Shown here piece by piece: positions 1 to 11,970 of a stretch of 34,850 bases of DNA. This DNA is from a bacterium (GTDB lineage: Bacteria > Patescibacteriota > Minisyncoccia > UBA6257 > Colwellbacteraceae): assembly GCA_029548485.1 (NCBI GenBank), contig JAKPNH010000003.1:1-34850 (forward strand). The letters run 5' to 3'. The notes beneath the pieces were generated by a model, which was given only the letters and a program-made list of their open reading frames with translations, was not told the DNA's origin and searched no databases. Position 1 is the first letter of the stretch. Every line of letters starts with the position of its first letter. A program made the position numbers and the translations under genes.

Positions 1-650
1 TGAACAGAATCACGCTCACGCTCTACGGCTCCAAGCCGGAAATCCACAACGCCGTTTCGAGAACCCCGGATTCTTTCGATCAAACCGTTTCCGGAATAAA
101 GAATATCCTCGCCAAGGAAAAGATCGCCTTGAGCGTCAATACGGTCGTCTGCCGTCTCAATTGCCAGGATCTTTTGGAAACGGGCAAGTTTATCGCCGCA
201 TTGGGCGTGAAAGTCTGGGGCGTGCTCGATCTCATACCTTTCGGAAACGCGGAGCGATTCTACGACATTCTGGCCGTCGACATCGAGACCCTTTCGTCGA
301 GCGTGCGCCGATTGCGAGAAATCGCCGAGGATTTCGACCAGATAGAGTTTTTCGATTTTCCGGTTTGCGTTTTGGGAAAGGAGCTTACCGCGAACCAGCG
401 TATCACCGTATTCGACGCCCAAGGCCGAATGGACGAATTCAAGCAAGTCGGATATAACCCGCGGCGATTCGAGAGCAAGAACGATTTTTGCGAAGACGTC
501 CACAAGTCGAGGATCTCTGTTTGTAAGAATTGCGCAATGAACAGGCGGTGCGCCGGAATCTGGAAGCCGTATCCGAATATTTTCGGCAAGAGCCCGGTCG
601 AAAAAGCCGTCAAAAATTGCGCCGTCGATTTTTTAAACCCCGAAAAATGA
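1..650 (+). CDS. radical SAM protein (C-terminal part, cut by window edge)
   Basis: The reading frame is open from base 3, so this is the C-terminal 215 residues of a longer protein and the N-terminal CxxxCxxC half lies outside the window. The visible part begins in the middle of the radical SAM barrel, with the stretch LTLYGSKPEIH and a following SFDQTV segment that align with the other radical SAM proteins downstream. Near the C-terminus it has the motif FPVC and then CKNCAMNRRCAG (about bases 522-557), the arrangement expected for an auxiliary iron-sulfur cluster in SPASM/twitch-type enzymes. The stop codon overlaps the start of the next gene (ATGA at 647-650), so the two are translationally coupled. 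A TTG at 129 is not a credible start because the domain continues upstream. Substrate unknown. Confidence 0.85.
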   Translation, partial: NRITLTLYGSKPEIHNAVSRTPDSFDQTVSGIKNILAKEKIALSVNTVVCRLNCQDLLETGKFIAALGVKVWGVLDLIPFGNAERFYDILAVDIETLSSSVRRLREIAEDFDQIEFFDFPVCVLGKELTANQRITVFDAQGRMDEFKQVGYNPRRFESKNDFCEDVHKSRISVCKNCAMNRRCAGIWKPYPNIFGKSPVEKAVKNCAVDFLNPEK

Positions 651-1864
651 AAAACGACGCTCGCCAAAAAATAAAAAAAGTGATTGCTGGAAAAACGCGG
701 GAGTTTTTCGACCGCAAGGCCGATTCCGCGCCGAAAATCCTTTATGTCAACTTGGGCGCCGAGTGCAACCAAAACTGCAATTTCTGTTTGATCAAAGGAA
801 ACGAACATAAGTTTCCTTTGATGGACATTCGTGAAGCCAAAAGGGTGATCAGAGACTTTTTGGGCGCCGGAGGCGAAGATATCATGTTCACCGGAGGAGA
901 ACCGACATTGCGCCGCGATTTGCCGGAAATCGTGGATTATACCGAAAAGCAGAAGAATCTAAACACCATTTCTATCATTACGAACGCGGTCAGGATGGCC
1001 GACAAGTATTACGCCGGCAAAATCTTCGAAGCGGATAAAAAACATAAATTGGGATTCAGTGTTTCTTTGCATTCCGACGATCAGAGAATTTCCGAAAAAA
1101 TAACGGCTTCCAAAGGAACGTTCAAGAAAACCGTCGAAGGAATGCAAAATATCGTCAAGAACGGACGGAGGATGTCGGTTTATCACGCGATCACCAATGA
1201 AAATTTCCGTCATCTGCCGAGATTCTGCGCATTTCTAAAGAAAGATTTTCCCGAAATCCGCAGCATCACTTTAGCTTATCCTTTTCCTCAGGGGAATGCA
1301 CTTTTGAACAAATGGATTTACGTACCTTTTAGCTCTTTAAAACCCTCCCTGATAGAAGCTTTATCTTTTTTGGACGAGAATGGATACGATACGAATATCG
1401 CTGCCTGCGGCCAATTTCCTTTATGCGTTATTCCGGGATTCGAAGAAAAAGTCCTTCAGTCTTTGGCTTTTGGAGAAGAGAGAATTTCCGGCGTAGTTGG
1501 TCAGGATGTTTTTCACGAGTTCGAGTGGGGATCGAAAGCGGCGGTTGATTTTTACAAAAACAAGCATTCCAATTGCCGGAAATGCATCCTTTCCAATTAT
1601 TGCCAGGGATTCTGGAAAGAATACATCGAGCTCTTCGATTTCGACGGACTGAAGCCGGTGACTGTCGTGAGTTTTATGGGAAACAAATTCAAGGTTCGAT
1701 TACGGAGCACGTCTGATGTCGAAGATGCGGCATCAAGGTTGGCAGAGGGGAAATTAAATGCGATTATATTGTCGGATTACGAGGATGAATATCTTAAAGA
1801 TTTAATCCGTTTATTGAAAGAAAAAAATGCTTTAGCGACAATAATCAAAAGTAAAAATCTTTAA
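647..1864 (+). CDS. radical SAM/SPASM-like protein with C-terminal extension
   Basis: This 405-aa protein has the radical SAM cluster motif CNQNCNFC (Cys40, Cys44, Cys47) and the SAM-binding GGEP motif at residues 83-86. The auxiliary-cluster signature is FPLC (Cys260) plus Cys310, Cys313 and Cys319 in CRKCILSNYCQG. After this signature it carries about 65 more residues, rich in alternating hydrophobic and charged positions, that the neighbouring paralogs lack. The start was placed at ATG 647, which overlaps the upstream stop, and not at an upstream in-frame ATG at 530 that would bury 39 residues inside the previous gene. The reaction is unknown. The family uses S-adenosylmethionine cleavage to make a 5'-deoxyadenosyl radical, often to modify peptides. 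Confidence 0.88.
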   Translation: MKNDARQKIKKVIAGKTREFFDRKADSAPKILYVNLGAECNQNCNFCLIKGNEHKFPLMDIREAKRVIRDFLGAGGEDIMFTGGEPTLRRDLPEIVDYTEKQKNLNTISIITNAVRMADKYYAGKIFEADKKHKLGFSVSLHSDDQRISEKITASKGTFKKTVEGMQNIVKNGRRMSVYHAITNENFRHLPRFCAFLKKDFPEIRSITLAYPFPQGNALLNKWIYVPFSSLKPSLIEALSFLDENGYDTNIAACGQFPLCVIPGFEEKVLQSLAFGEERISGVVGQDVFHEFEWGSKAAVDFYKNKHSNCRKCILSNYCQGFWKEYIELFDFDGLKPVTVVSFMGNKFKVRLRSTSDVEDAASRLAEGKLNAIILSDYEDEYLKDLIRLLKEKNALATIIKSKNL

Positions 1865-1865
1865 A

Positions 1866-2831
1866 ATGGCCGAACTCCATACCTATCTGCAAGTCAATTC
1901 CAGATGCAACCAGAAATGCGTTTTTTGCAACCGGCCTCCGGTCGGTTTCGAGTCGGATGATTATTCCCTGGAAAAGATAGATCAGAAATTCGGCGAATTG
2001 AAAAAAGAAGGCCAGACCGAACGCATAATCCTTACCGGAGGCGAGCCGACGCTCCATCCACAGCTGAACGACATCATTCTTTCCGGAAAGAAAAGAGGAT
2101 TCGTGATCGAAGTCCAGACGAACGGCACTTTGTTCGGCGCTAAAGAGCTAGAAAAATGGAAGAAGTCCGGACTCGATATCATCAATTTCGCTTTTCACAG
2201 CCACAAGGAAAAAACAAGCAACGAGCTTCGGGGAATCGGTTACGGATTCCAGAAAATCATCGATAACATCAAATACGCGAGCCAACTGGGATTCGAACTG
2301 CACCTGATCCACGTCATCAATTCGGTTAATTATAAAGATCTTCCGGGGTGGATCGATTTCGTTAAAAAAATGGGCTTGAAAAGATTTTACGTAAATTTGA
2401 GCATCGTCGTTCCCGACGGCTGGGCTTGGGAGAACCAGTGGATCATCCCGAGAATGGCCGATATCGGCCCGTATCTCCGCGAAGCCTGCCGCAAATGCGA
2501 AGAATACGGAATCAATTTCGATATTTCCGAAATCGTGCCTTTGTGCCACGTCAAGGGCTTCGAGATCCATGCTGTTTCGACGAACTTCAAATTCACCGGA
2601 TTGAAAATAGCCGACGATTATTATGTCGGTCGGCGCATACTCGATTTCGAAAAGCCGAATCGTACGGTGGCCAACAAAGCTCCGCAATGCGCCAAATGCT
2701 CGATGAACGAAATCTGCGGAGGATTTTATCCGCGCCTCAAAACGCTCTACGGAGTTTCCGATTTTAAGCCGCGCCGCGATGACCCTCGGAAGATCATCGA
2801 CAAGATCCGTCCCAAAAAGAATAATGGTTAA
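1866..2831 (+). CDS. radical SAM/SPASM-like protein
   Basis: This is a 321-aa paralog of its neighbours. The cluster motif CNQKCVFC lies at residues 14-21, the TGGEPT motif at about 57-62, and the C-terminal auxiliary-cluster signature is VPLC (Cys227) with Cys275, Cys278 and Cys284 in CAKCSMNEICGG. It begins one base after the stop of the upstream gene and its end overlaps the next gene by 8 bases, consistent with one operon. The central region (residues about 110-130) aligns with the HGH/GSF stretch of the paralogs but is more diverged. Function and substrate are not recognisable; a peptide-modifying or cofactor-building role is possible by family only. Confidence 0.88.
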   Translation: MAELHTYLQVNSRCNQKCVFCNRPPVGFESDDYSLEKIDQKFGELKKEGQTERIILTGGEPTLHPQLNDIILSGKKRGFVIEVQTNGTLFGAKELEKWKKSGLDIINFAFHSHKEKTSNELRGIGYGFQKIIDNIKYASQLGFELHLIHVINSVNYKDLPGWIDFVKKMGLKRFYVNLSIVVPDGWAWENQWIIPRMADIGPYLREACRKCEEYGINFDISEIVPLCHVKGFEIHAVSTNFKFTGLKIADDYYVGRRILDFEKPNRTVANKAPQCAKCSMNEICGGFYPRLKTLYGVSDFKPRRDDPRKIIDKIRPKKNNG

Positions 2832-3720
2832 GCGTTCGAAAAATCGAACACGGTGGGCCGATCAAGGACACGATTACGTAAGCCCATATATTTACATCGG
2901 CTATGACTGTAACAACAATTGCTCTTTTTGCAGCGAATCCGACGAGTATTTAGAGAACCTCCAAAAAAAAGACTTCAAACAGCTTAAAACGGAAATAAAA
3001 AAAATCAGGGAAAATTACGATTTCATAAGTCTCATGGGCAGGGAACCCACTTTGCGGCCGGATTTTTTCGATTTACTCGCTTTCGCGAAAACGCTGGATT
3101 TTCGGCAGACGAGCGTCGCCACGAACGGCCGGCTGCTGGCCTATCCGGAGTTTGTCAAAAAAATGCTCGGTTGCGGTGTGAATCAAGTGGGCATTTCTTT
3201 CAACAGTTCGGACGAAAAAATCCACGATTCGATGACGGCTTGCCCCGGAAGCTTCGAACAGACGATTAAGGGAATCAAGAATCTGACGGCTCTGAAAAAG
3301 CCTGGGTTGAGTATTCTCGTCAACGTGCCGCTGACCCAAAAGAATTACGAGACGCTTGAGCCAACCCTCGACTTGTTGATCCGTTTGGGAGTCAAAGAAA
3401 TCAATATCCTCTGGGTGGCGCCGCTTAGCCGGCGTTCCCGCACCAGAGACATCGTTTGCCACATGCCGACGCTAAGCCGCCACGTCGCCAAAACATTGAA
3501 AAAAGAAAAATACCAAAAATCGGGAGTCAAGTTCCTGCTCGTCGAGTTCTTGCCTTGCAGCCTCCCGAAAGATTTCCGGGATTTGTTTTTTCCTTGCCTC
3601 GAAAAAAACTCCAACAAGACGCGTATCGATCTGTGCCCTGAATGCCCTTACAAGTTTTCTTGCGACGGAGTGCTCCGGGATTATCTCGAGCTATACGGGC
3701 AGGAAGGATTGAAATTATGA
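2824..3720 (+). CDS. radical SAM/SPASM-like protein, GREP variant
   Basis: This 298-aa protein has the cluster motif CNNNCSFC (Cys29, Cys33, Cys36). The usual GGEP motif is changed to GREP (residues 72-75), so an arginine replaces the second glycine. The C-terminal signature is FLPC (Cys245) plus Cys271, Cys274 and Cys280 in CPECPYKFSCDG. The start at ATG 2824 overlaps the end of the upstream gene by 8 bases; an alternative ATG at 2779 would add 15 residues unlike any paralog. The stop overlaps the next start (ATGA, 3717-3720). The paralog block TNGRLLAY corresponds to TNGRMFSY in the gene at 5497. Substrate unknown. Confidence 0.87.
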   Translation: MVKRSKNRTRWADQGHDYVSPYIYIGYDCNNNCSFCSESDEYLENLQKKDFKQLKTEIKKIRENYDFISLMGREPTLRPDFFDLLAFAKTLDFRQTSVATNGRLLAYPEFVKKMLGCGVNQVGISFNSSDEKIHDSMTACPGSFEQTIKGIKNLTALKKPGLSILVNVPLTQKNYETLEPTLDLLIRLGVKEINILWVAPLSRRSRTRDIVCHMPTLSRHVAKTLKKEKYQKSGVKFLLVEFLPCSLPKDFRDLFFPCLEKNSNKTRIDLCPECPYKFSCDGVLRDYLELYGQEGLKL

Positions 3721-5513
3721 ATAAATCCGCGGCCGCCACGCTCAAAGACTACCAAGGCTTCCTGAAAAATTATCCGGTGGATTATTTCACGAGCGACTTG
3801 GTGTCCATCATCAATCCTCCGGAAGAAAAGCCGCTTTCGGAAATAAAGAAGCTTTGGGAAGATTTCCTTCCGACGAGGAAAAAAGGCCAGACCTTGAATT
3901 TTTATATCCACGTTCCTTTTTGCAAGAAAAGGTGTGATTATTGCTGCTGCCATTCGAAAGCGCTCGAGAAAACGGACGACATCGGCGCCTACGTCAAAAA
4001 TCTCGTCGAATATTCCCGTTATTTCAAAAAAGTTTTTGAAGGCGTCAGTTTCACCAACCTCTACATCGGAGGGGGAACGCCCAGCGTCTTGAGCGAAGCG
4101 CAGCTCGATTATCTTTTAAAGAACCTTTTCGCCGACTTCTCTTTCGACAATGACGGAGAAAAAACCTGCGAAATGCATCCGTCGAGCGCCGACTTGTCGA
4201 AGTTGGCTGTTTTAAGGAAATACGGATTCAACCGGGTCAGTTTCGGAGTCCAATCTTTGGACTCGGCGGTGCTCCGTAAAAACAACCGCGGCTATCAGAC
4301 TTTGGAAAAAGTGCGTTCGGCGATCTGGAACGCGCGGCAGCTCGGATTCTTGAAAGTCAACGCGGATCTGATCCTGGGCCTTTACGGAGACAGCCAGGCG
4401 GCTTTCGTGCGGAGTTTTTCGAAGCTCATGGAAATCAACCCTTATTCCATTTTTATTTATCCGTTGAAAATCGTGCCTACCTACATCAAAAAAGACAGCT
4501 ACCGGGGCAATTTCGAGCGCCATTACCAATCGACGGTTGATTTCTTCAAAAAACTCCAGCGCTTGGCCGAGAAAGAAGGCTATAGCGCTCCGTACGATCC
4601 GGATGTATTTTTGCCGATGAACGATGCGAGCGCCTGGGCCTTCGAGAAAATAGGAGAGGAAACCGGCCTTAAAAAATCTTACCGAGCGAAAGATTACCGG
4701 AAAATATTGGGTGTTTTCGGATTGGGCCGGTTCAGCATGTCGACCATCCCGTCCCAAATATCCTATCAGATGATGGCTCCCATCGACCGAAAACCGGCGG
4801 AATACTCTTGTTCCGCGAGAACTTATTCTCCGAAAATGGAAATGGCCGAAAGAGTGGTCTCTTCGTTGTGCTACAACCATTATGTCGATTGCCTCCGATT
4901 CCGAGAGGATTTCAAGAAAGATTTTTTCGAGGTTTTCGATAGCGCTTTGGATAACCTCGAAGCTTTGAAGGCGGTGGAAATAAAAAACGACCGCGTTTAT
5001 CTTTTGACCAGGAATCCGCGAAAAAAAGCGGCTTACATGATGTTTTTCTGCGACCCCGATGAAAACGTCTTACGCCGCATCGGGGAGCGACGCAACTTGG
5101 CGTCGGAAGAAGAATGGGGCAAAGAACGCGGCATTGGCTGGTTGAGGAGGCCGCGGCCCGGCAAACGGGAACTCAAAAACCAAGCCACCTTGAAATCCAG
5201 ACTGGACAGGTTGTGCGTTCCTTTCGAAGGCAAAACCGCGATCATCGACGGAAAAGCAACGGGCGTCGGAAAAAGATCTTTACGGGTTTTATCGAAGGAC
5301 GGAAAGAACTTCGAGTTTCTTTTGACTCCGCAGACGGCGATCACGGAAATGTTTTTCGACGACAAAGAGGAGTCTTACGAGAAATCGGCGACGCTCAAAG
5401 AAATCAGAAAAGGCGATCCGGTATCGGTGACGGCCGTCTTGGGAAACAAACCGCAAGCGCTTATCGTGAGAAAAATAACCGTAGTCAATTGGATCGATGG
5501 CAAAGAAAGATAA
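3717..5513 (+). CDS. HemN/HemW-family radical SAM protein with C-terminal DUF5666-like domain
   Basis: This 598-aa protein is the odd member of the cluster. It has the HemN/HemW signature YIHVPFC, followed by cysteines 69, 73 and 76 for the radical SAM cluster and Cys78 in the HemN-like fourth position (an extra Cys77 makes CCC). GGGTP is at 118-122 and SFGVQSLD follows. About residues 499-598 form an extra domain with the pattern GK-x-IDG, a T-A-I strand, a K-x-GDPVSV turn and a final strand, which resembles the small beta-rich DUF5666 fold; this domain call is by eye. Nothing else for haem synthesis is visible, so coproporphyrinogen oxidation is unlikely; other HemN-like enzymes perform methylation or cyclisation. 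Start ATG 3717 overlaps the upstream stop. An ATG-free upstream extension to 3642 was rejected. Confidence 0.85.
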   Translation: MNKSAAATLKDYQGFLKNYPVDYFTSDLVSIINPPEEKPLSEIKKLWEDFLPTRKKGQTLNFYIHVPFCKKRCDYCCCHSKALEKTDDIGAYVKNLVEYSRYFKKVFEGVSFTNLYIGGGTPSVLSEAQLDYLLKNLFADFSFDNDGEKTCEMHPSSADLSKLAVLRKYGFNRVSFGVQSLDSAVLRKNNRGYQTLEKVRSAIWNARQLGFLKVNADLILGLYGDSQAAFVRSFSKLMEINPYSIFIYPLKIVPTYIKKDSYRGNFERHYQSTVDFFKKLQRLAEKEGYSAPYDPDVFLPMNDASAWAFEKIGEETGLKKSYRAKDYRKILGVFGLGRFSMSTIPSQISYQMMAPIDRKPAEYSCSARTYSPKMEMAERVVSSLCYNHYVDCLRFREDFKKDFFEVFDSALDNLEALKAVEIKNDRVYLLTRNPRKKAAYMMFFCDPDENVLRRIGERRNLASEEEWGKERGIGWLRRPRPGKRELKNQATLKSRLDRLCVPFEGKTAIIDGKATGVGKRSLRVLSKDGKNFEFLLTPQTAITEMFFDDKEESYEKSATLKEIRKGDPVSVTAVLGNKPQALIVRKITVVNWIDGKER

Positions 5514-6474
5514 AATTTCCAAAAGCGTCATCTTCACGGGATACGAATGCAACAACCATTGCCGTTTTTGCATGGAGCAAGACAAAAGGAATCTTCCGAT
5601 AAGAACCGCGGTTGAGGTCAAAAAAGAAATCGCCGCGGCCAAGAAAAGGGGATCGACCTATCTCGAGCTTATCGGAGGCGAAACGACCATCAGGCCGGAT
5701 TTTACCGATATCGTCGGATTCGCCAAAAAAGTCGGATTCAAAACCATCATGATCGCCACGAACGGCCGGATGTTTTCCTATGAACCGGTCGCCGAAAGCC
5801 TAATCGAGGCCGGCATCAACAGCGTTGTTTTTTCCATCCACGGGCACACGGCGAAGATCCACGATTATTTGACCCAAGTTCCCGGAAGTTTCGATCAGCT
5901 CCGAAAAGGATTGACGAATATCCGTTCGATCATCAAGCGGAAAAACTTAAAAATGCATCTCGGTTCAAACACCACCGTCGTCAAGCAGAATTTCCGTTAT
6001 CTGCCGCAAATCGGGAAATTTATTTTGGATCAGGGGATCAAAGATTCCGAATTCATCTTCGTCGACTGCAACGAAGGCGGGGCCAGGCGTTATTTCGAGG
6101 CACTGGTTCCGAAAATCTCCGAAGCGGCGCCGCATATCCGGAAATGCCTGGATATCGGCAATAAAGCCGGAGCCGTCCATTGGGACATAAGATACGTGCC
6201 GCTTTGTCATTTTCCCGATCATCTGGACCGGATCAGCGAACTCCACGAAATTAATATATTCAACACGGAACATATCGCCCAGGATTTCGTCGATTTCGAC
6301 GCCCTGGAATCGCGGAAAAAATGGGCCCGCAAGAAAACTTTGCGCTGTAAAGGCTGCGCATTGTATAATTCCTGCGAAGGCATTTGGGTGGAATATCTGA
6401 AGCGCTACGGCGACGAAGAACTGTCGCCGATAAAGCATATCAGCCCCCGTCAAAAGAAGATGCTTTTTCCTTGA
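5497..6474 (+). CDS. radical SAM/SPASM-like protein, GGET variant
   Basis: This 325-aa protein has the cluster motif CNNHCRFC (Cys18, Cys22, Cys25). The SAM-binding motif is GGET (residues 60-63) in place of GGEP. It carries the paralog motifs TNGRMFSYE (about 88-96) and IHGHTAKIHD (114-123), which match the gene at 6705 closely. The C-terminal signature is VPLC (Cys237) with Cys284, Cys287 and Cys293 in CKGCALYNSCEG. Its start overlaps the end of the HemN-like gene by 17 bases. It is followed by a 20-base gap and the small protein gene. Function unknown; the strong similarity to the 6705 protein suggests a duplication within the operon. Confidence 0.88.
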   Translation: MAKKDKISKSVIFTGYECNNHCRFCMEQDKRNLPIRTAVEVKKEIAAAKKRGSTYLELIGGETTIRPDFTDIVGFAKKVGFKTIMIATNGRMFSYEPVAESLIEAGINSVVFSIHGHTAKIHDYLTQVPGSFDQLRKGLTNIRSIIKRKNLKMHLGSNTTVVKQNFRYLPQIGKFILDQGIKDSEFIFVDCNEGGARRYFEALVPKISEAAPHIRKCLDIGNKAGAVHWDIRYVPLCHFPDHLDRISELHEINIFNTEHIAQDFVDFDALESRKKWARKKTLRCKGCALYNSCEGIWVEYLKRYGDEELSPIKHISPRQKKMLFP

Positions 6475-6494
6475 ATTAAAATAAAATCAACACC

Positions 6495-6695
6495 ATGGCC
6501 AAAAAAGAAGAGAAAACTTATATCGTCACCTATAAAAGCGAAGAACATTTCGAAGTGGTAGGGTGGGTCTGGGCGAGCAACATGCTCGAAGCCAAACGTA
6601 AAGCCAAAACCGAGCTTGCGGAGCAGGCCCGTCGCTACGACGTCAAACTGGCGGAAATAGCCGAATACAAGGACGCATCGGAGATAGGCTTTTAA
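6495..6695 (+). CDS. 66-aa small protein inside the radical SAM operon (candidate substrate or partner)
   Basis: This is a small protein of unknown function with no cysteine, no signal peptide and no membrane segment. The predicted layout is strand-strand (TYIVTYK, HFEVVGWVWASN), then a long charged helix (LEAKRKAKTELAEQARRY), then a short strand and the C-terminal ending EIGF. It lies 20 bases after one radical SAM gene and 9 bases before the next, so it is in the same operon. It could be a modified substrate (it has several Tyr, Trp, Phe, His, Lys and Glu side chains), a carrier, or a small folded accessory. It does not look like a PqqD-type peptide-recognition domain. No Shine-Dalgarno site is evident; a TAAAAT lies 7 bases upstream of the ATG. 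Confidence 0.75.
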   Translation: MAKKEEKTYIVTYKSEEHFEVVGWVWASNMLEAKRKAKTELAEQARRYDVKLAEIAEYKDASEIGF

Positions 6696-6704
6696 TCCAT
6701 TTTT

Positions 6705-7643
6705 ATGGAATTTTGCGTCACCAATCTGTGCAATAACCGATGCATTATGTGCACCAATTCGGCCGAGTTCAGCGACCCCAAAAACAACAAAGGATACGAA
6801 TTCGACGAACTGATCGAGAGGATCGGACAGCGCGCCGAGCATCTTCTGAAAACCAAGGAGCCGATCAATATCACCGGCGGCGAGCCGACCATCGTTCCGC
6901 ATTTCGTCAAGCTTCTGAACTGGCTGCGGAAGAACTTTCCCCGGAACGAGATCGTCTGCGTTTCCAACGGCCGGATGTTTTCCTACGAGGATTTCGCCAA
7001 GCAAGTCTTGCGCGTCGACAATCTCAAGTTGGAAATCGCTTTCCACGGCCACACACCGCGGCTCTACGACGAAATCTCCGGGGTAAAAGGCGGCTTTCCC
7101 CAGACGCTCCAGGGAATAAAAAACATCTTGCGGTTCCGCAACGACAGTCACCTCATAGAAACGAGAACGGTTATCATCAGGCAAAACCACAAAAGACTCG
7201 ACGATATCCTCGGATTCGTCCACGAGAATTTCAAAGGATTGGACACGGTCGTGCTGATTTTCCACGAACTGGAAGGCCAATGCGGAGACCATCTGGGCGG
7301 AGTGGCGGTCTCTTACAAAGACATCGAGAAAGAAGTGGTCCGCAATATCGAAAAATGGTCTAAAAAAATCGACGATTTGAGGCTTTATCATTTTCCTTTA
7401 TGCGTTTTGCCGTCCGGTCTTTGGCCGCATACCTGGCGGACTCTGCCGGCCAGAGAAGTCTCTTTTCCGGATAATTGTGCCAAATGCCTTTATCGGAAAT
7501 ATTGCATGGGCGTGCACAACGAGTACCGCCGTCTTGTCGGAGACGAAGAGTTCAAGCCCGTCGACTCGAAGATCCTCTTGAAAACGAGCCGGGGACAGGA
7601 ATTCATTTACCATCCGATCGTCGCCATCGGCGACCAGCCATGA
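6705..7643 (+). CDS. radical SAM/SPASM-like protein
   Basis: This 312-aa protein begins almost directly at the cluster motif, with CNNRCIMC at residues 9-16 (Cys9, Cys13, Cys16), and an in-frame stop just upstream excludes a longer start. The motif TGGEPT is at about 57-62, followed by SNGRMFSYE and FHGHTPRLYD, closely matching the gene at 5497. The C-terminal signature is FPLC (Cys233) with Cys258, Cys261 and Cys267 in CAKCLYRKYCMG. Its stop overlaps the start of the A24 peptidase gene (ATGA at 7640-7643), which ties the peptidase to the radical SAM operon. Substrate unknown. Confidence 0.88.
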   Translation: MEFCVTNLCNNRCIMCTNSAEFSDPKNNKGYEFDELIERIGQRAEHLLKTKEPINITGGEPTIVPHFVKLLNWLRKNFPRNEIVCVSNGRMFSYEDFAKQVLRVDNLKLEIAFHGHTPRLYDEISGVKGGFPQTLQGIKNILRFRNDSHLIETRTVIIRQNHKRLDDILGFVHENFKGLDTVVLIFHELEGQCGDHLGGVAVSYKDIEKEVVRNIEKWSKKIDDLRLYHFPLCVLPSGLWPHTWRTLPAREVSFPDNCAKCLYRKYCMGVHNEYRRLVGDEEFKPVDSKILLKTSRGQEFIYHPIVAIGDQP

Positions 7644-8788
7644 TCGATTTCATTTTTCTCGCGCCGATGTTCGTGATCGGGATTATCGCGATTTATACGG
7701 ACATCAAGCGCAACAAAATACCGAATCAGCTCATCGTTTCCGGGTTTATTTGCGCCATTACCCTTTACACCTTTGTTTTCATTTACGACCGCTTTTTCAT
7801 CGGTCTTCAAACAAACCTCGATTATATGATCGAAGTTTTATTGAATACCGCGTCGGCGATGGTCGCGGGATACGTCATTTGGGATCTGAGGCTTTGGTCT
7901 CCGGGCGACGCCAAACTGTTCATGGTCTACGCCGCCCTCCTGCCCCTCAAGTTTTATTCTTCGAGCTTTATCAAGTTTTTCCCGTCCATCAATCTTCTGA
8001 TCAACCTTTTCGTTCCGCTCGTGATCACGATCGTCTTGAAAGCGGGCTTCGTCTACGCCGGAGATTTTTTGGCGAGAAGAAAGATGAAACCGATCGTCGA
8101 AACCGCGGCCTCCAAAGAAGAAAAAAAACAAACCCGCATTTTCCGGTTGAAAAACCTCGGCTATTCCTTGGCGATGTTCTTCACCGTGTTCGTTTTCTTC
8201 CAGATCGTTTCCAGGATGTTTAGCGGAACGATTCTGGCTTCGCTTTTCGGGCACCCGCTTTTCGCTTTTTGTTTCATGATAATCGTATCCGGAAGGCTGA
8301 TGAATCTTTTGAACAAGAACAAATGGTCGAAAAGGCTGGCCATTCTCATCCCCGCGTCCTACCTGATTTACCACGTTTTAATCGGACAATGGCAGTCTGT
8401 TTTGGGCTCGGCGCGCATGGTCGTCATCATGTGGTTCATTTTCAATGTTTTCAAGCAGGCCATTGCTTTTTACGTGCAAACGAGGGAAATTTCGGTTGTT
8501 CCGTTGAATTGCCTGAAAAAGGGAGACATGCCTTGCCCGTCGGCCGAGGTCATCATCAAGTCCAAATTGTCGGTCGTCGGCCGAGTCGACGATCTCGGTT
8601 CGTGGGGCCCGGAAGGATTGAGCCTGGAACAAGTGGCTTTGATATCCTCCATTCCCGCGGAAGAGCAAAAAGCCGATGTCGAGATCTATAAGACATTCTC
8701 CTTCGCCCCTTATATGCTTTTTTCCGCTGTCCTATGCATACTGACGCGAAGTTCTTTGGTGGCGCTTTTGGTCAATTGGATCGGTTAA
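7640..8788 (+). CDS. A24-family (prepilin/preflagellin-type) membrane aspartic peptidase
   Basis: This 382-aa polytopic membrane protein has roughly ten hydrophobic segments. The first catalytic aspartate is Asp21 in YTDIKRNKIPNQL and the second is Asp90 in WSPGDAK, which corresponds to the GxGD motif of type IV prepilin and archaeal preflagellin peptidases. It lacks the bacterial N-terminal cysteine-rich methylase domain. A soluble segment around residues 280-350, containing PLNCLKKGDMPCP, is reminiscent of the archaeal A24 C-terminal domains (by eye). The enzyme would cut after a positively charged leader at the inner membrane face. The start at ATG 7640 overlaps the stop of the preceding radical SAM gene, so it belongs to that operon. 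No pilin gene is present in this window, so the substrate is open. Confidence 0.8.
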   Translation: MIDFIFLAPMFVIGIIAIYTDIKRNKIPNQLIVSGFICAITLYTFVFIYDRFFIGLQTNLDYMIEVLLNTASAMVAGYVIWDLRLWSPGDAKLFMVYAALLPLKFYSSSFIKFFPSINLLINLFVPLVITIVLKAGFVYAGDFLARRKMKPIVETAASKEEKKQTRIFRLKNLGYSLAMFFTVFVFFQIVSRMFSGTILASLFGHPLFAFCFMIIVSGRLMNLLNKNKWSKRLAILIPASYLIYHVLIGQWQSVLGSARMVVIMWFIFNVFKQAIAFYVQTREISVVPLNCLKKGDMPCPSAEVIIKSKLSVVGRVDDLGSWGPEGLSLEQVALISSIPAEEQKADVEIYKTFSFAPYMLFSAVLCILTRSSLVALLVNWIG

Positions 8789-8832: not shown

Positions 8833-9315
8833 ATGAGAAGAAACATCATTATAATATTGTCCGTCGTATTGTTGGTGGCGGCCGGAGTCGCCTTTTATTT
8901 CTTTGGCGGCCGTTCGAGAGAAACCGAAACTTTGCCGCCGAGCGTCTCGGTTTGGAAAGGCAAACAATTGGTGGCCGATTATTTCGAGTTCCTGATCGAG
9001 GGAGCGATCCAAAACATATCCGCGGAAACGTCTCCGGCCACGATCACCATCGCCGTCAAATTGCCGAGCATTTTCGTGGATCCGGACGCGGAGACGGCCG
9101 ACGTCGTCTGCGAACTCAAAGAGGATGCGGAAATCGTCTTTTACGATTTATCCACGAGAGAGGAAACTTCGGTAACGCTGGCGGATTTGAATGTTTTGAA
9201 CCAAGTGGTGGCCGAACTCGACGGAATCACCAATGTCTCGGTTTTGGACGGGGAACGATGCGTCATCCGCAAGATAAGGAGGATCCTCTCTTTTCCGGGT
9301 TCTCCGGCCGAGTAG
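8833..9315 (+). CDS. membrane-anchored protein of unknown function
   Basis: This is a 160-aa protein with one N-terminal membrane anchor (about residues 4-24, IIIILSVVLLVAAGVAFYFF) followed by a soluble, probably extracytoplasmic domain. The soluble part is predicted beta-rich and contains two cysteines. It has a T-x-A-DL segment followed by short strands, vaguely like DUF5666-type domains, but this is weak. It is preceded by its own TATAAT box and followed 36 bases later by the oxidoreductase genes. Function cannot be assigned. Confidence 0.7.
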   Translation: MRRNIIIILSVVLLVAAGVAFYFFGGRSRETETLPPSVSVWKGKQLVADYFEFLIEGAIQNISAETSPATITIAVKLPSIFVDPDAETADVVCELKEDAEIVFYDLSTREETSVTLADLNVLNQVVAELDGITNVSVLDGERCVIRKIRRILSFPGSPAE

Positions 9316-9351: not shown

Positions 9352-10992
9352 ATGAAGCGGTCCATTTTGATCGGCGGCGAAGCCGGCAGGGGAGTCGACA
9401 GGACAGCGGCTTTGATCGCCGAGATTTTTTCCGATTGCGGATATTTCTGCTTTGTCTATCGAGATTACGGCTCTTTTATCAAGGGCGGGCACAATTTCAG
9501 TGTCGTCACTATTTCTTCGGAACCGGTTTTTTCCCACGAAGACGAATTCGATCTCATCATCGCCCTCGATAATTCCGCTTTGGAAAAGCACGTCGAATCG
9601 CTAAAGCCATCAGGCAAGGTTTTTTTGAACAGCGACGAAAAACAATCGGCCGAAAACGTCATTTCTGTCGCGGCCGACGGATTCGCCGCCGATAAGAAAG
9701 TCGGCCGCTCTTTCGGGAACAATATTTTCATCGGCGCGGTTTTAGGCTGTTTCGGCTTGGACTGGCGTCGCGGTTTCAAGGCGATTGGCGGCAGATTTTC
9801 CGCGGGCGACGCGGCCGTGGTCAAAGAAGCTTTGCGTTTAGGCCACGAAACTTGGCGAGGAGAGAGTTTCGGGTTCGAACCGAAGTCCCAAAAGCTCAAG
9901 ATATCGACCGGAAACCAGGCGGCGGCAAAAGCCTGCGTCGAAGCCGGACTCGATCTCTGTTTCGCTTATCCGATCACTCCGGCGACCGGATTTGTCGACG
10001 CCCTAAGCCAAAGCGGAAAAGTGACGGTTCATCAGCCGGAAGACGAGATAGCGGCCGTAAACCAAACCTTGGGAGCGGTTTTTTCCGGCGCCATGGCGGC
10101 CACGGCCACTTCCGGAGAAGGAGCCGCTCTGATGGCCGAATCTTTTAGCTTGGCGGCCATGGCCGAGATTCCTTTTGTTCTTTACTGGGCTTCGAGGCTT
10201 GGACCTTCGACCGGAGTCCCTACCTATTCCGGCCAGGGAGACCTGAAATTCGCCCTGAATATCGGGCACGGAGAGTTCCCGCGGGTGGTGGTGGCGCCCG
10301 GAGACGCCAACGAATCTTATTCGCGAACAATGGAAGCTTTTTATTTCGCCTACAAATATCGTTTACCGGTCGTTATATTGACCGACAAGAATTTGGCGGA
10401 AAGCTACTACAATTTCGAAGCTCTGCCTTCGCTCCTCCGGCCGGGAAAATTCCTAGTCAAACCGAAAGCAGGATACAAAAGCTACGCTTTTACCGAGAAC
10501 GGAATCAGCCCGCGCCTCGCGCCGGGGCAAGGCCCGATTGTCCGGGCCACGAGCTACGAACACGACGAATGCGGGCTAACCGTCGAAGATCCGGAAACGA
10601 TCGAGGCGATGAGCGAAAAGCGCTGGAGAAAGGCGAAATTCTTGGAAAAGGAAATCGCGAAATTGCATCCTTGCCGTCTTTACGGCAAGGGGAAAAATCT
10701 GATTGTCGGCTGGGGATCGACCAAGGGCGCGGTCATAGACGCCCTCAAACGATTACCCGGATATTCTTTTCTCCAGATTTCTTATGTCGCGCCGTTTCCG
10801 GCGAGAGAAGTAGAGAAAATCATTAGTAAGGCGAAAAGGACTATCCTTTTGGAAAACAACTCGACCGGACTCCTCGGCCGGATCATCAGGGAGGAGACCG
10901 GCATCGAAATCAAAGAAAAATTACTGAAAAATAACGGCCGGCCGTTCACCGCCGAAGAAATAGCCAAGCGATTGCAAAACCGCTATGCATAA
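9352..10992 (+). CDS. korA: 2-oxoacid:ferredoxin oxidoreductase, fused gamma-alpha subunit
   Basis: This 546-aa protein combines two subunits. The first about 175 residues form the gamma domain (GGEAGRGVDRTA, then YGSFIKGGHN). Residues from about 183 onward form the alpha subunit, with GNQAAAKACVEAG, AYPITPATGF and later GWGSTKGA. The complex oxidatively decarboxylates a 2-oxoacid to acyl-CoA, CO2 and reduced ferredoxin in the cytoplasm. Which 2-oxoacid is used cannot be told from sequence alone. The gene overlaps the beta-subunit gene by 8 bases, so the subunits are co-translated. Gene symbol is by family and not by proven substrate. Confidence 0.85.
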   Translation: MKRSILIGGEAGRGVDRTAALIAEIFSDCGYFCFVYRDYGSFIKGGHNFSVVTISSEPVFSHEDEFDLIIALDNSALEKHVESLKPSGKVFLNSDEKQSAENVISVAADGFAADKKVGRSFGNNIFIGAVLGCFGLDWRRGFKAIGGRFSAGDAAVVKEALRLGHETWRGESFGFEPKSQKLKISTGNQAAAKACVEAGLDLCFAYPITPATGFVDALSQSGKVTVHQPEDEIAAVNQTLGAVFSGAMAATATSGEGAALMAESFSLAAMAEIPFVLYWASRLGPSTGVPTYSGQGDLKFALNIGHGEFPRVVVAPGDANESYSRTMEAFYFAYKYRLPVVILTDKNLAESYYNFEALPSLLRPGKFLVKPKAGYKSYAFTENGISPRLAPGQGPIVRATSYEHDECGLTVEDPETIEAMSEKRWRKAKFLEKEIAKLHPCRLYGKGKNLIVGWGSTKGAVIDALKRLPGYSFLQISYVAPFPAREVEKIISKAKRTILLENNSTGLLGRIIREETGIEIKEKLLKNNGRPFTAEEIAKRLQNRYA

Positions 10993-11743
10993 GAAAAAAG
11001 ACTTGGAGACAAAAATGCCGATCACCTGGTGTCCGGGATGCCCGAACAACGTTATCCTTTACGTCTTGAAATCCGTCCTCAAAGAACTGGTCGACGCGAA
11101 AAAGATCAGGAAGCAGGATATAGTCGTCGTCACCGATATCGGCTGCGCCGGGAAAATATACGACTACCTGGAGGTGAACGCTTTTTACGGATTGCACGGC
11201 CGGGCCATACCGATCGCCACGGGCATCAAGATGGGAAATCCGGGATTGACGGTCATCGCCGTCGCCGGAGACGGCGGAACCTACGGCGAAGGATTGAACC
11301 ATTTGGTTTCGAGCAGCCGGTTGAATCCGGATATCACCGTCATCGTCATCAATAACGGCGTTCTCGCTTTAACCAAAGGCCAACCGACGTCGACCCACCC
11401 GTCGATCGGAGGGGAGCCGATCTTCGATCCCGTTCCTTTGGCTTTGGCAAGCCAGGCGTCTTTTGTCAGCCGGGAAACGGCTTTCGATCTTCGAGACCTC
11501 CAATCGACCGTCAAAGCGGCCATAATGCACAAAGGATTCTCTTTGGTCGACATATTCGAGCCGTGCTTGTCTTATAATAATGACGGCGAACGGATGAAGC
11601 GCGATACGGAAAGAGTCTGCGGAAAAGACATCCAATCCGATTTTGAGGAGAGTTTGAGACCAAAGATCCGAACGGGCGTTTTCCGGAAAATGTCCCGGCC
11701 GACCCTGGAACAAAAACTGCGCCTCTCGAAGAAAAAATCATGA
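10985..11743 (+). CDS. korB: 2-oxoacid:ferredoxin oxidoreductase, beta subunit
   Basis: This 252-aa protein is the thiamine-diphosphate-binding beta subunit. It has WCPGCPNN near the N-terminus, TDIGCAG, the ThDP-binding stretch AGDGGTYGEG followed by VINNG, and IFEPCLSYNND. The four cysteines in those blocks are the expected ligands for the beta-subunit [4Fe-4S] cluster. The usual YGMTGGQ-type sequence reads LALTKGQ here. The start ATG 10985 overlaps the end of the alpha gene, and the stop overlaps the ferredoxin start (ATGA at 11740-11743). Together the three genes form a complete small oxidoreductase. Confidence 0.87.
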   Translation: MHKKKDLETKMPITWCPGCPNNVILYVLKSVLKELVDAKKIRKQDIVVVTDIGCAGKIYDYLEVNAFYGLHGRAIPIATGIKMGNPGLTVIAVAGDGGTYGEGLNHLVSSSRLNPDITVIVINNGVLALTKGQPTSTHPSIGGEPIFDPVPLALASQASFVSRETAFDLRDLQSTVKAAIMHKGFSLVDIFEPCLSYNNDGERMKRDTERVCGKDIQSDFEESLRPKIRTGVFRKMSRPTLEQKLRLSKKKS

Positions 11744-11970
11744 AAAAAATAATCTTGGATTACAAAAAATGCGCTCGTTGCGGACTCTGCGCCAACGTCT
11801 GCCCGGAGGTTTTCGGCTGGGACTCGAAATCATCCGAGCCGTTCTTGAAGAACGGAAGTAAAAAAGAACGGGGAACGGCCTCGGCGGAAACCGACGAGCC
11901 CTGCGCCGAGGAAGCGGCCAGGCTTTGCCCGGTCGCCGCCATCGAAATCGTAAACCCGAAGAAAAAATAA
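11740..11970 (+). CDS. single-cluster ferredoxin, oxidoreductase partner
   Basis: This 76-aa ferredoxin has CARCGLCANVCPEVF at residues 11-25 and LCPVAAIEI near the end. Cysteines 11, 14, 17 and 63 fit the ligand pattern of single [4Fe-4S] ferredoxins of the Pyrococcus type. Cysteines 21 and 55 sit where that family has its disulfide. A basic, Lys-rich segment lies between the two halves. It overlaps the beta-subunit gene and is likely the electron acceptor or a delta subunit. Reduced ferredoxin of this type is a plausible donor for radical SAM clusters encoded upstream. Confidence 0.88.
   Translation: MKKIILDYKKCARCGLCANVCPEVFGWDSKSSEPFLKNGSKKERGTASAETDEPCAEEAARLCPVAAIEIVNPKKK

Follow-up and report, generated by a model that had tools for sequence, protein, structure and literature searches.

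An expanded His-Xaa-Ser gene cluster with ten radical SAM genes and an A24-type peptidase gene in a Patescibacteria genome

The window analyzed here, a stretch of 34,850 nucleotides, is contig C9 of a Patescibacteria genome (G000; 541 kb in 11 contigs, estimated to be 97% complete). Nine genes follow each other on its plus strand, beginning with g1, a HxsC-like Twitch radical SAM (rSAM) gene that is cut at its 5' end by the window edge and retains the C-terminal 215 aa (3-650). It is followed by g2 (HxsC-like Twitch rSAM, 405 aa, 647-1864), g3 (Twitch rSAM, 321 aa, 1866-2831), g4 (HxsC4-like Twitch rSAM, 298 aa, 2824-3720), g5 (HemN-like rSAM, 598 aa, 3717-5513), g6 (HxsC4-like Twitch rSAM, 325 aa, 5497-6474), g7 (a 66-aa protein, 6495-6695), g8 (rSAM, the closest HxsC relative of the set, 6705-7643) and g9 (a dedicated A24-type peptidase, 382 aa, 7640-8788). 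The Radical_SAM family PF04055 is passed by g2 to g6 and by g8, and g1 matches it through its N-terminal 98 aa, which were located at the end of the neighboring contig C8 (L015 17017-17310). The positions and strand of the nine genes agreed with the initial annotation, confirming a tight operon across 1-8788. In order from g1 to g9, the junctions measure -4, +1, -8, -4, -17, +20, +9 and -4 bases; the earlier statement that no gap exceeds 20 bases therefore holds, whereas the four overlaps counted at that time are in fact five, three of them exact ATGA overlaps.

Further members had been suspected past the left edge, and contig C8 supplied seven additional genes together with the start of g1. 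This contig ends with a same-strand run encoding HxsD (190 aa), a HxsD-like protein (75 aa), the rSAM HxsB (489 aa), an HxsA4 precursor (257 aa, with 56 His-x-Ser motifs), a SPASM-type rSAM (564 aa, L015 13386-15080), the rSAM R313 (313 aa), a DUF483-like protein (336 aa) and the first 98 codons of g1. The gap between the two contigs was placed at approximately 18 bp by alignment to the congener G021, in which HxsA to g9 lie on one contig and DNA identity around the gap is approximately 87%; in G022, the region from HxsD to g9 is unbroken and lacks g5. The operon in the window forms the 3' portion of a larger cluster, which recurs in another genus and in another family of the order. Synteny that includes the small protein, proposed earlier as support for a system, was found again in other Patescibacteria families.

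The SPASM-type rSAM has as its G022 counterpart a 656-aa protein (L043 5353-7323, reverse strand numbering) with 28% identity, and the flanking genes in G022 are 63-80% identical; a gene exchange is possible at this position. Directly 5' of hxsD, a 448-aa fibre-like repeat protein is encoded (L015 8975-10321), and G022 and G091 have homologues at the corresponding position. In the loci L073, L074, L077, L082 and L084 of Patescibacteria class members, type IV pilus genes (PilB/PilT/pilin/PilD-like) were seen 5' of hxsD.

Ten rSAM genes are contained in the cluster of about 16 kb (~15.8 kb), representing 10 of the 14 rSAM domain hits of the entire genome (binomial, 4e-13). The cluster occupies about 3% of the genome and has a lower G+C (0.47-0.48 vs. 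0.52). On its 3' side, the window carries genes for a 2-oxoacid:ferredoxin oxidoreductase (alpha and beta) and a ferredoxin at 9352-11970; oxidoreductase and ferredoxin genes also lie 3' of the G022 cluster, and in G021 the alpha gene runs up to the contig end. These products could be an electron source for the rSAM enzymes. Between g9 and the oxidoreductase, a 160-aa protein with an N-terminal membrane helix (8833-9315) belongs to no family and is conserved in G021 (84%) and G022 (40%).

Comparative genomics led to the proposal of the His-Xaa-Ser (HXS) system, whose canonical form, reportedly set out by Haft and Basu in 2011, is HxsA-HxsB-HxsC-HxsD; to our knowledge, no HXS product has been characterized. 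In the cluster, curated cut-offs were passed by HxsB (TIGR03978, 490.9 bits vs. 370), HxsD (TIGR03976, 62.1 vs. 50), the HxsD-like protein (NF038315, 51.5 vs. 41) and HxsA4 (NF038313, 88.4 vs. 55). For HxsC (TIGR03977), no cluster gene reached the cut-off of 267.9, the best being g8 with 165.4 bits. HxsC4 (NF038332) has a cut-off of 500 bits, and membership of R313 (153) and g6 (168) was rejected on these scores, which together with those of their relatives span 128-185. HxsC or HxsC4 is, below the cut-offs, among the best families for g1, g2, g4, g6, g8 and R313; family profile scores place g3 as a weaker HxsC relative and g5 as HemN-like. Judged by these profiles, the cluster is an expanded HXS system in which diverged paralogs replace canonical HxsC, and it was filed as a variant rather than a canonical member because the HxsC cut-off is not reached and diverged homologues stand in its place.

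For comparison, a canonical locus on an Aeromonas plasmid has the four genes hxsD-hxsB-hxsC-hxsA, and a Nostoc locus is similar with hxsA2; the HxsA proteins of both start with a plain short signal peptide. The canonical form also occurs in the Patescibacteria class member G865, with an HxsC of 362 bits and a canonical-type HxsA. HxsD, HxsB, an HxS-repeat HxsA and HxsC-related rSAMs in one operon are common to the canonical and expanded forms, whereas the cluster described here has ten rSAMs, two HxsD-type proteins, g7, the DUF483-like protein, an A24 peptidase and another HxsA leader in place of a four-gene locus. With the NCBIfam models for HxsA4 and HxsD-like proteins passed, the precursor type is already catalogued, but R313, g6 and their relatives fall far below the HxsC4 model. 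New in this study are the mostly separate rSAM orthogroups, the 66-aa gene before an HxsC-like rSAM, and the dedicated A24-type protease. Literature searches returned no paper on HXS in CPR, on HxsA-D chemistry or on the expanded cluster as a system, and none combining a prepilin peptidase, radical SAM and a leader peptide. The expanded cluster is therefore catalogued in part by NCBI models and undescribed as a system within the literature searched. The initial annotation, which recognized no described system, was incomplete in that the genes on contig C8 place the cluster in a described kind, and its own caveat that the set might be a known pathway under another name proved partly justified by the HXS match.

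Among themselves, the rSAM paralogs of the cluster are 20-35% identical. All ten contain CxxxCxxC (that of g1 being on contig C8), and the Twitch/SPASM auxiliary cysteines PxC (PC in g4) and CX2CX5C are present in R313, g1-g4, g6 and g8 and missing from g5. In a tree of 243 HxsC-like rSAMs, the orthogroups contain nearly one member per locus (R313, 57 loci; g8, 36; g3, 22; g6, 16; g1, 16 with a weak support of 0.45; g4, 5; g2, 4). Several span phyla and DPANN archaea, with that of g6 extending to Elusimicrobiota at approximately 50% identity, and conservation is narrow for g2, g4 and g5; members of the g3 orthogroup lie directly 5' of the A24 gene in some loci. The tandem layout and the shared HxsC/HxsC4 affinity of several rSAMs might suggest that the extra genes are redundant products of recent tandem duplication with no roles of their own, yet this is very improbable given the low mutual identity, the separate orthogroups common to other families and phyla, and the retention of CxxxCxxC throughout and of the auxiliary cysteines in the Twitch types, and recent tandem duplication was rejected by the tree. 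The earlier view that the genes form a genuine, conserved system of several different radical enzymes is upheld by these separate orthogroups and by recurrence in relatives. In relatives, the fusions R313-g1, g2-DUF483 (G020), SPASM-R313-HemN and g8-HemN occur, suggesting that the products work together; in G774, HemN-like domains are fused to relatives of R313 and g8. The HemN-like group includes class C-type methyltransferases, and g5 could be such an enzyme; it is dispensable, being missing from G022.

The small protein g7 lies directly 5' of g8 in several families and has a predicted beta-beta-alpha-beta fold (pLDDT 92) for which a fold search gave no significant match. Its predicted model contains no winged helix as would be expected of a PqqD-like RiPP recognition element. 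As a modified precursor, g7 was rejected, having no repeat, leader or core and being conserved as a folded domain; the precursor is most probably the HxS-repeat protein encoded upstream. A fold search with the DUF483-like protein gave nothing significant, its predicted model having a pLDDT of only 74.

HxsA4, which is very probably the substrate of the cluster enzymes, has a basic leader that ends in SGEEGK, followed by a hydrophobic segment, a signal-peptidase-like AxA site and the His-x-Ser array. The leader of the cluster HxsA proteins, KK.(I/L)K.FLxSEE(G/A)K(I/M/V), is conserved across phyla and in archaea. It is followed by the hydrophobic segment, by an AxA-like site in nearly all precursors, in many by H(S/T)NYF or HxSxFxN..GxGQH, and then by the HxS array; the C-terminal end is often GGWC or GxW. 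Many precursors of relatives are short (76-98 aa, 4-10 HxS motifs), and arrays in the genus of the window have about 50 motifs. Clusters with g2 and g4 and a visible precursor (G000, G020-G022, G091; few and related) contain HxSxFxN..GxGQH, so that further enzymes may act on other precursor elements such as this one, the link to g1-g4 coming from one lineage. Additional domains were also observed on HxsA proteins: those of L053, L075 and L088 have in common a C-terminal domain of about 300 aa starting with CPF(I/V)xxWNGKxxxxxNNIL, for which a Pfam search with the L088 domain found no family, and that of L098 (Woesearchaeota) is fused to a Peptidase_S74 intramolecular chaperone domain (8.7e-18).

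The peptidase g9 passes Peptidase_A24 (PF01478, 28.9 bits vs. a cut-off of 26.5), and the catalytic D21 and G89-D90 are invariant in 34/34 homologues, most of which are encoded immediately 3' of a gene resembling g8 or g3, commonly with a 4-base overlap. A second A24 gene in the genome belongs to a different family. Within the order, HxsB scores above the cut-off in 4 of 244 genomes, with a fifth (G021) truncated at a contig end. The g9-type A24 was found in six of the 244, namely these five HxsB genomes (hypergeometric 9e-10, kinship not corrected for) and G198. The G198 contig, which its coordinates identify as L090, contains other genes of the cluster and breaks off ahead of HxsB. More broadly, 36 of 38 genomes with the K.FLxSEE(G/A)K leader encode a g9-type A24, although the 36 are not phylogenetically independent; it was not detectable in two SEEG genomes (G776 and G852), the clusters of which both run off contig ends. 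Neither of the two genomes with another HxsA leader, a Myxococcales genome (L112) and G865 with its canonical HxsA, has one. As a prediction check, the genomes of L095, L113, L123 and L163, in which a SEEG leader is present and the A24 gene is missing from the fetched locus, all carry the A24 gene elsewhere; these four are among the 36.

At the position just before the proposed cut stands G or A, the residues that A24 enzymes prefer there. The first five or so residues after SEEG are polar or charged, and the Glu+5 of prepilins is missing; SEEG is therefore not a textbook A24 site. With the A24 prepilin and preflagellin peptidases, g9 has in common the catalytic Asp pair (D21, and D90 in GDAK), the membrane protein character and G/A at the proposed -1 position; it differs in its extra C-terminal region and in having as its putative substrate a peptide-modification precursor. 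We know of no A24-type leader peptidase in any RiPP-like pathway. From this association and these residues, cleavage of the HxsA leader by g9 is given a little better than an even chance. Alternatively, SEE(G/A)K could be a docking site for HxsB/HxsD or the HxsC-like enzymes, with signal peptidase I alone cutting after AxA and g9 acting on another protein (e.g., a pilin-like partner) or anchoring the enzymes at the membrane. The polar residues, rather than a hydrophobic stretch, directly after the motif, the AxA-like site of nearly all precursors and the pilin genes adjoining some clusters would fit such a docking role. Nevertheless, docking is considered rather unlikely because the leader type and the g9-type A24 co-occur across phyla, because the Myxococcales locus keeps HxsB, HxsD and R313 though both motif and peptidase are missing, and because the proposed cut follows G or A and the catalytic Asp residues are invariant.

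Combining gene content, homology, synteny, orthogroups, fusions and the association of leader type with peptidase, an expanded HXS system in which rSAMs modify the HxsA4 array, g9 cuts the leader and the array is exported is, as a whole, likely. In the cytosol, the array would undergo several separate modification steps, carried out by HxsB, the HxsC-like Twitch enzymes (R313, g1-g4, g6 and g8), the 564-aa SPASM-type enzyme and the HemN-like g5, with the HxsD proteins, g7 and the DUF483-like protein as putative substrate or scaffold partners. The likeliest basic reaction would be a C-C crosslink that joins the His imidazole to the beta-carbon of the Ser at i+2, giving a three-residue cyclophane. 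The enzyme g9 would then remove the leader at the SEE(G/A)-K bond at the cytosolic membrane face, and the rigidified array would be exported and either displayed or released.

The precedent for such a crosslink comes from the triceptide enzymes HaaB, which forms a C2(His)-Cbeta(Ala) link, and MscB, which forms a C4(Phe)-Cbeta(Ser) link, both from i to i+2 (PMC11002830), making a His-to-Ser link the simplest guess. Triceptide systems (HaaB, MscB, XncB, OscB) join an aromatic residue i to the Cbeta of i+2, a pattern that fits His-x-Ser, and use a SPASM rSAM maturase, but their precursors, leaders and enzymes belong to other families. Cyclophane chemistry on His-x-Ser, with which the motif is compatible, is accordingly proposed by analogy as a tentative idea, more doubtful than probable.

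The S74 fusion of the archaeal HxsA, the large C-terminal domains in three Patescibacteria HxsA proteins and the fibre-like and pilus neighbors suggest Sec-like export and display, and surface display of the array is rated as an even call. Instead of a surface polymer, the product could be a diffusible RiPP (a signal, a bacteriocin or a metal-binding peptide) or a cofactor derived from a peptide, as the short precursors of many relatives, their GGWC/GxW ends resembling those of small RiPPs and the kinship of several rSAMs with RiPP or cofactor maturases may suggest; His-rich arrays can also bind metals. With arrays of about 50 motifs in the genus of the window, large C-terminal or S74 chaperone domains on some HxsA proteins and no dedicated peptide exporter recognized in the G000 cluster, a diffusible product seems unlikely. 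For the surface-displayed array, use of such stiff structures by host-dependent bacteria and archaea at their surface is speculation.

HxsB above the cut-off was detected in 19 of 384 genomes of the class sample and 3 of 380 of the phylum sample, and scanning genomes with R313 yielded at least 403 relatives. The best 80 of these R313 loci belong to Patescibacteria, many Elusimicrobiota, Omnitrophota, Myxococcota, Spirochaetes, Deltaproteobacteria, Schekmanbacteria and DPANN archaea, the last including a complete chromosome (CP058998), while some short metagenome contigs are possibly misbinned. Each of these 80 loci contains 0-14 genes that match the rSAMs used as reference, and HxsB/HxsD and HxS arrays are often present as well; many have no HxS array in the fetched stretch, and the Elusimicrobiota and archaeal loci vary widely. 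In the Elusimicrobiota loci L144, L142, L130 and L108, 12-14 rSAM-like genes were seen in about 20 kb, some without an HxS array in the fetched stretch. Horizontal spread of the cluster is suggested by its sparse occurrence in the order, its presence in both bacteria and archaea and its lower G+C. There may exist a class of secreted or surface His-x-Ser array proteins that spans several phyla and both domains and is modified by up to ten or more rSAMs and matured by an A24 leader peptidase, though this broad reading falls somewhat short of an even chance.

The recurrence of cluster parts in Patescibacteria, Elusimicrobiota, Omnitrophota and DPANN archaea provides a handle on HXS, as does a precursor leader that is nearly constant across domains and a leader type that predicts one peptidase. 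The expanded cluster opens tests of the bond formed by HXS enzymes, of the number of radical steps per repeat, and of prepilin-type peptidases in peptide-modification pathways. Relatives of HxsB were also present on 411 plasmid records, 317 of them from Klebsiella, and 327 of the 411 are predicted to be conjugative.
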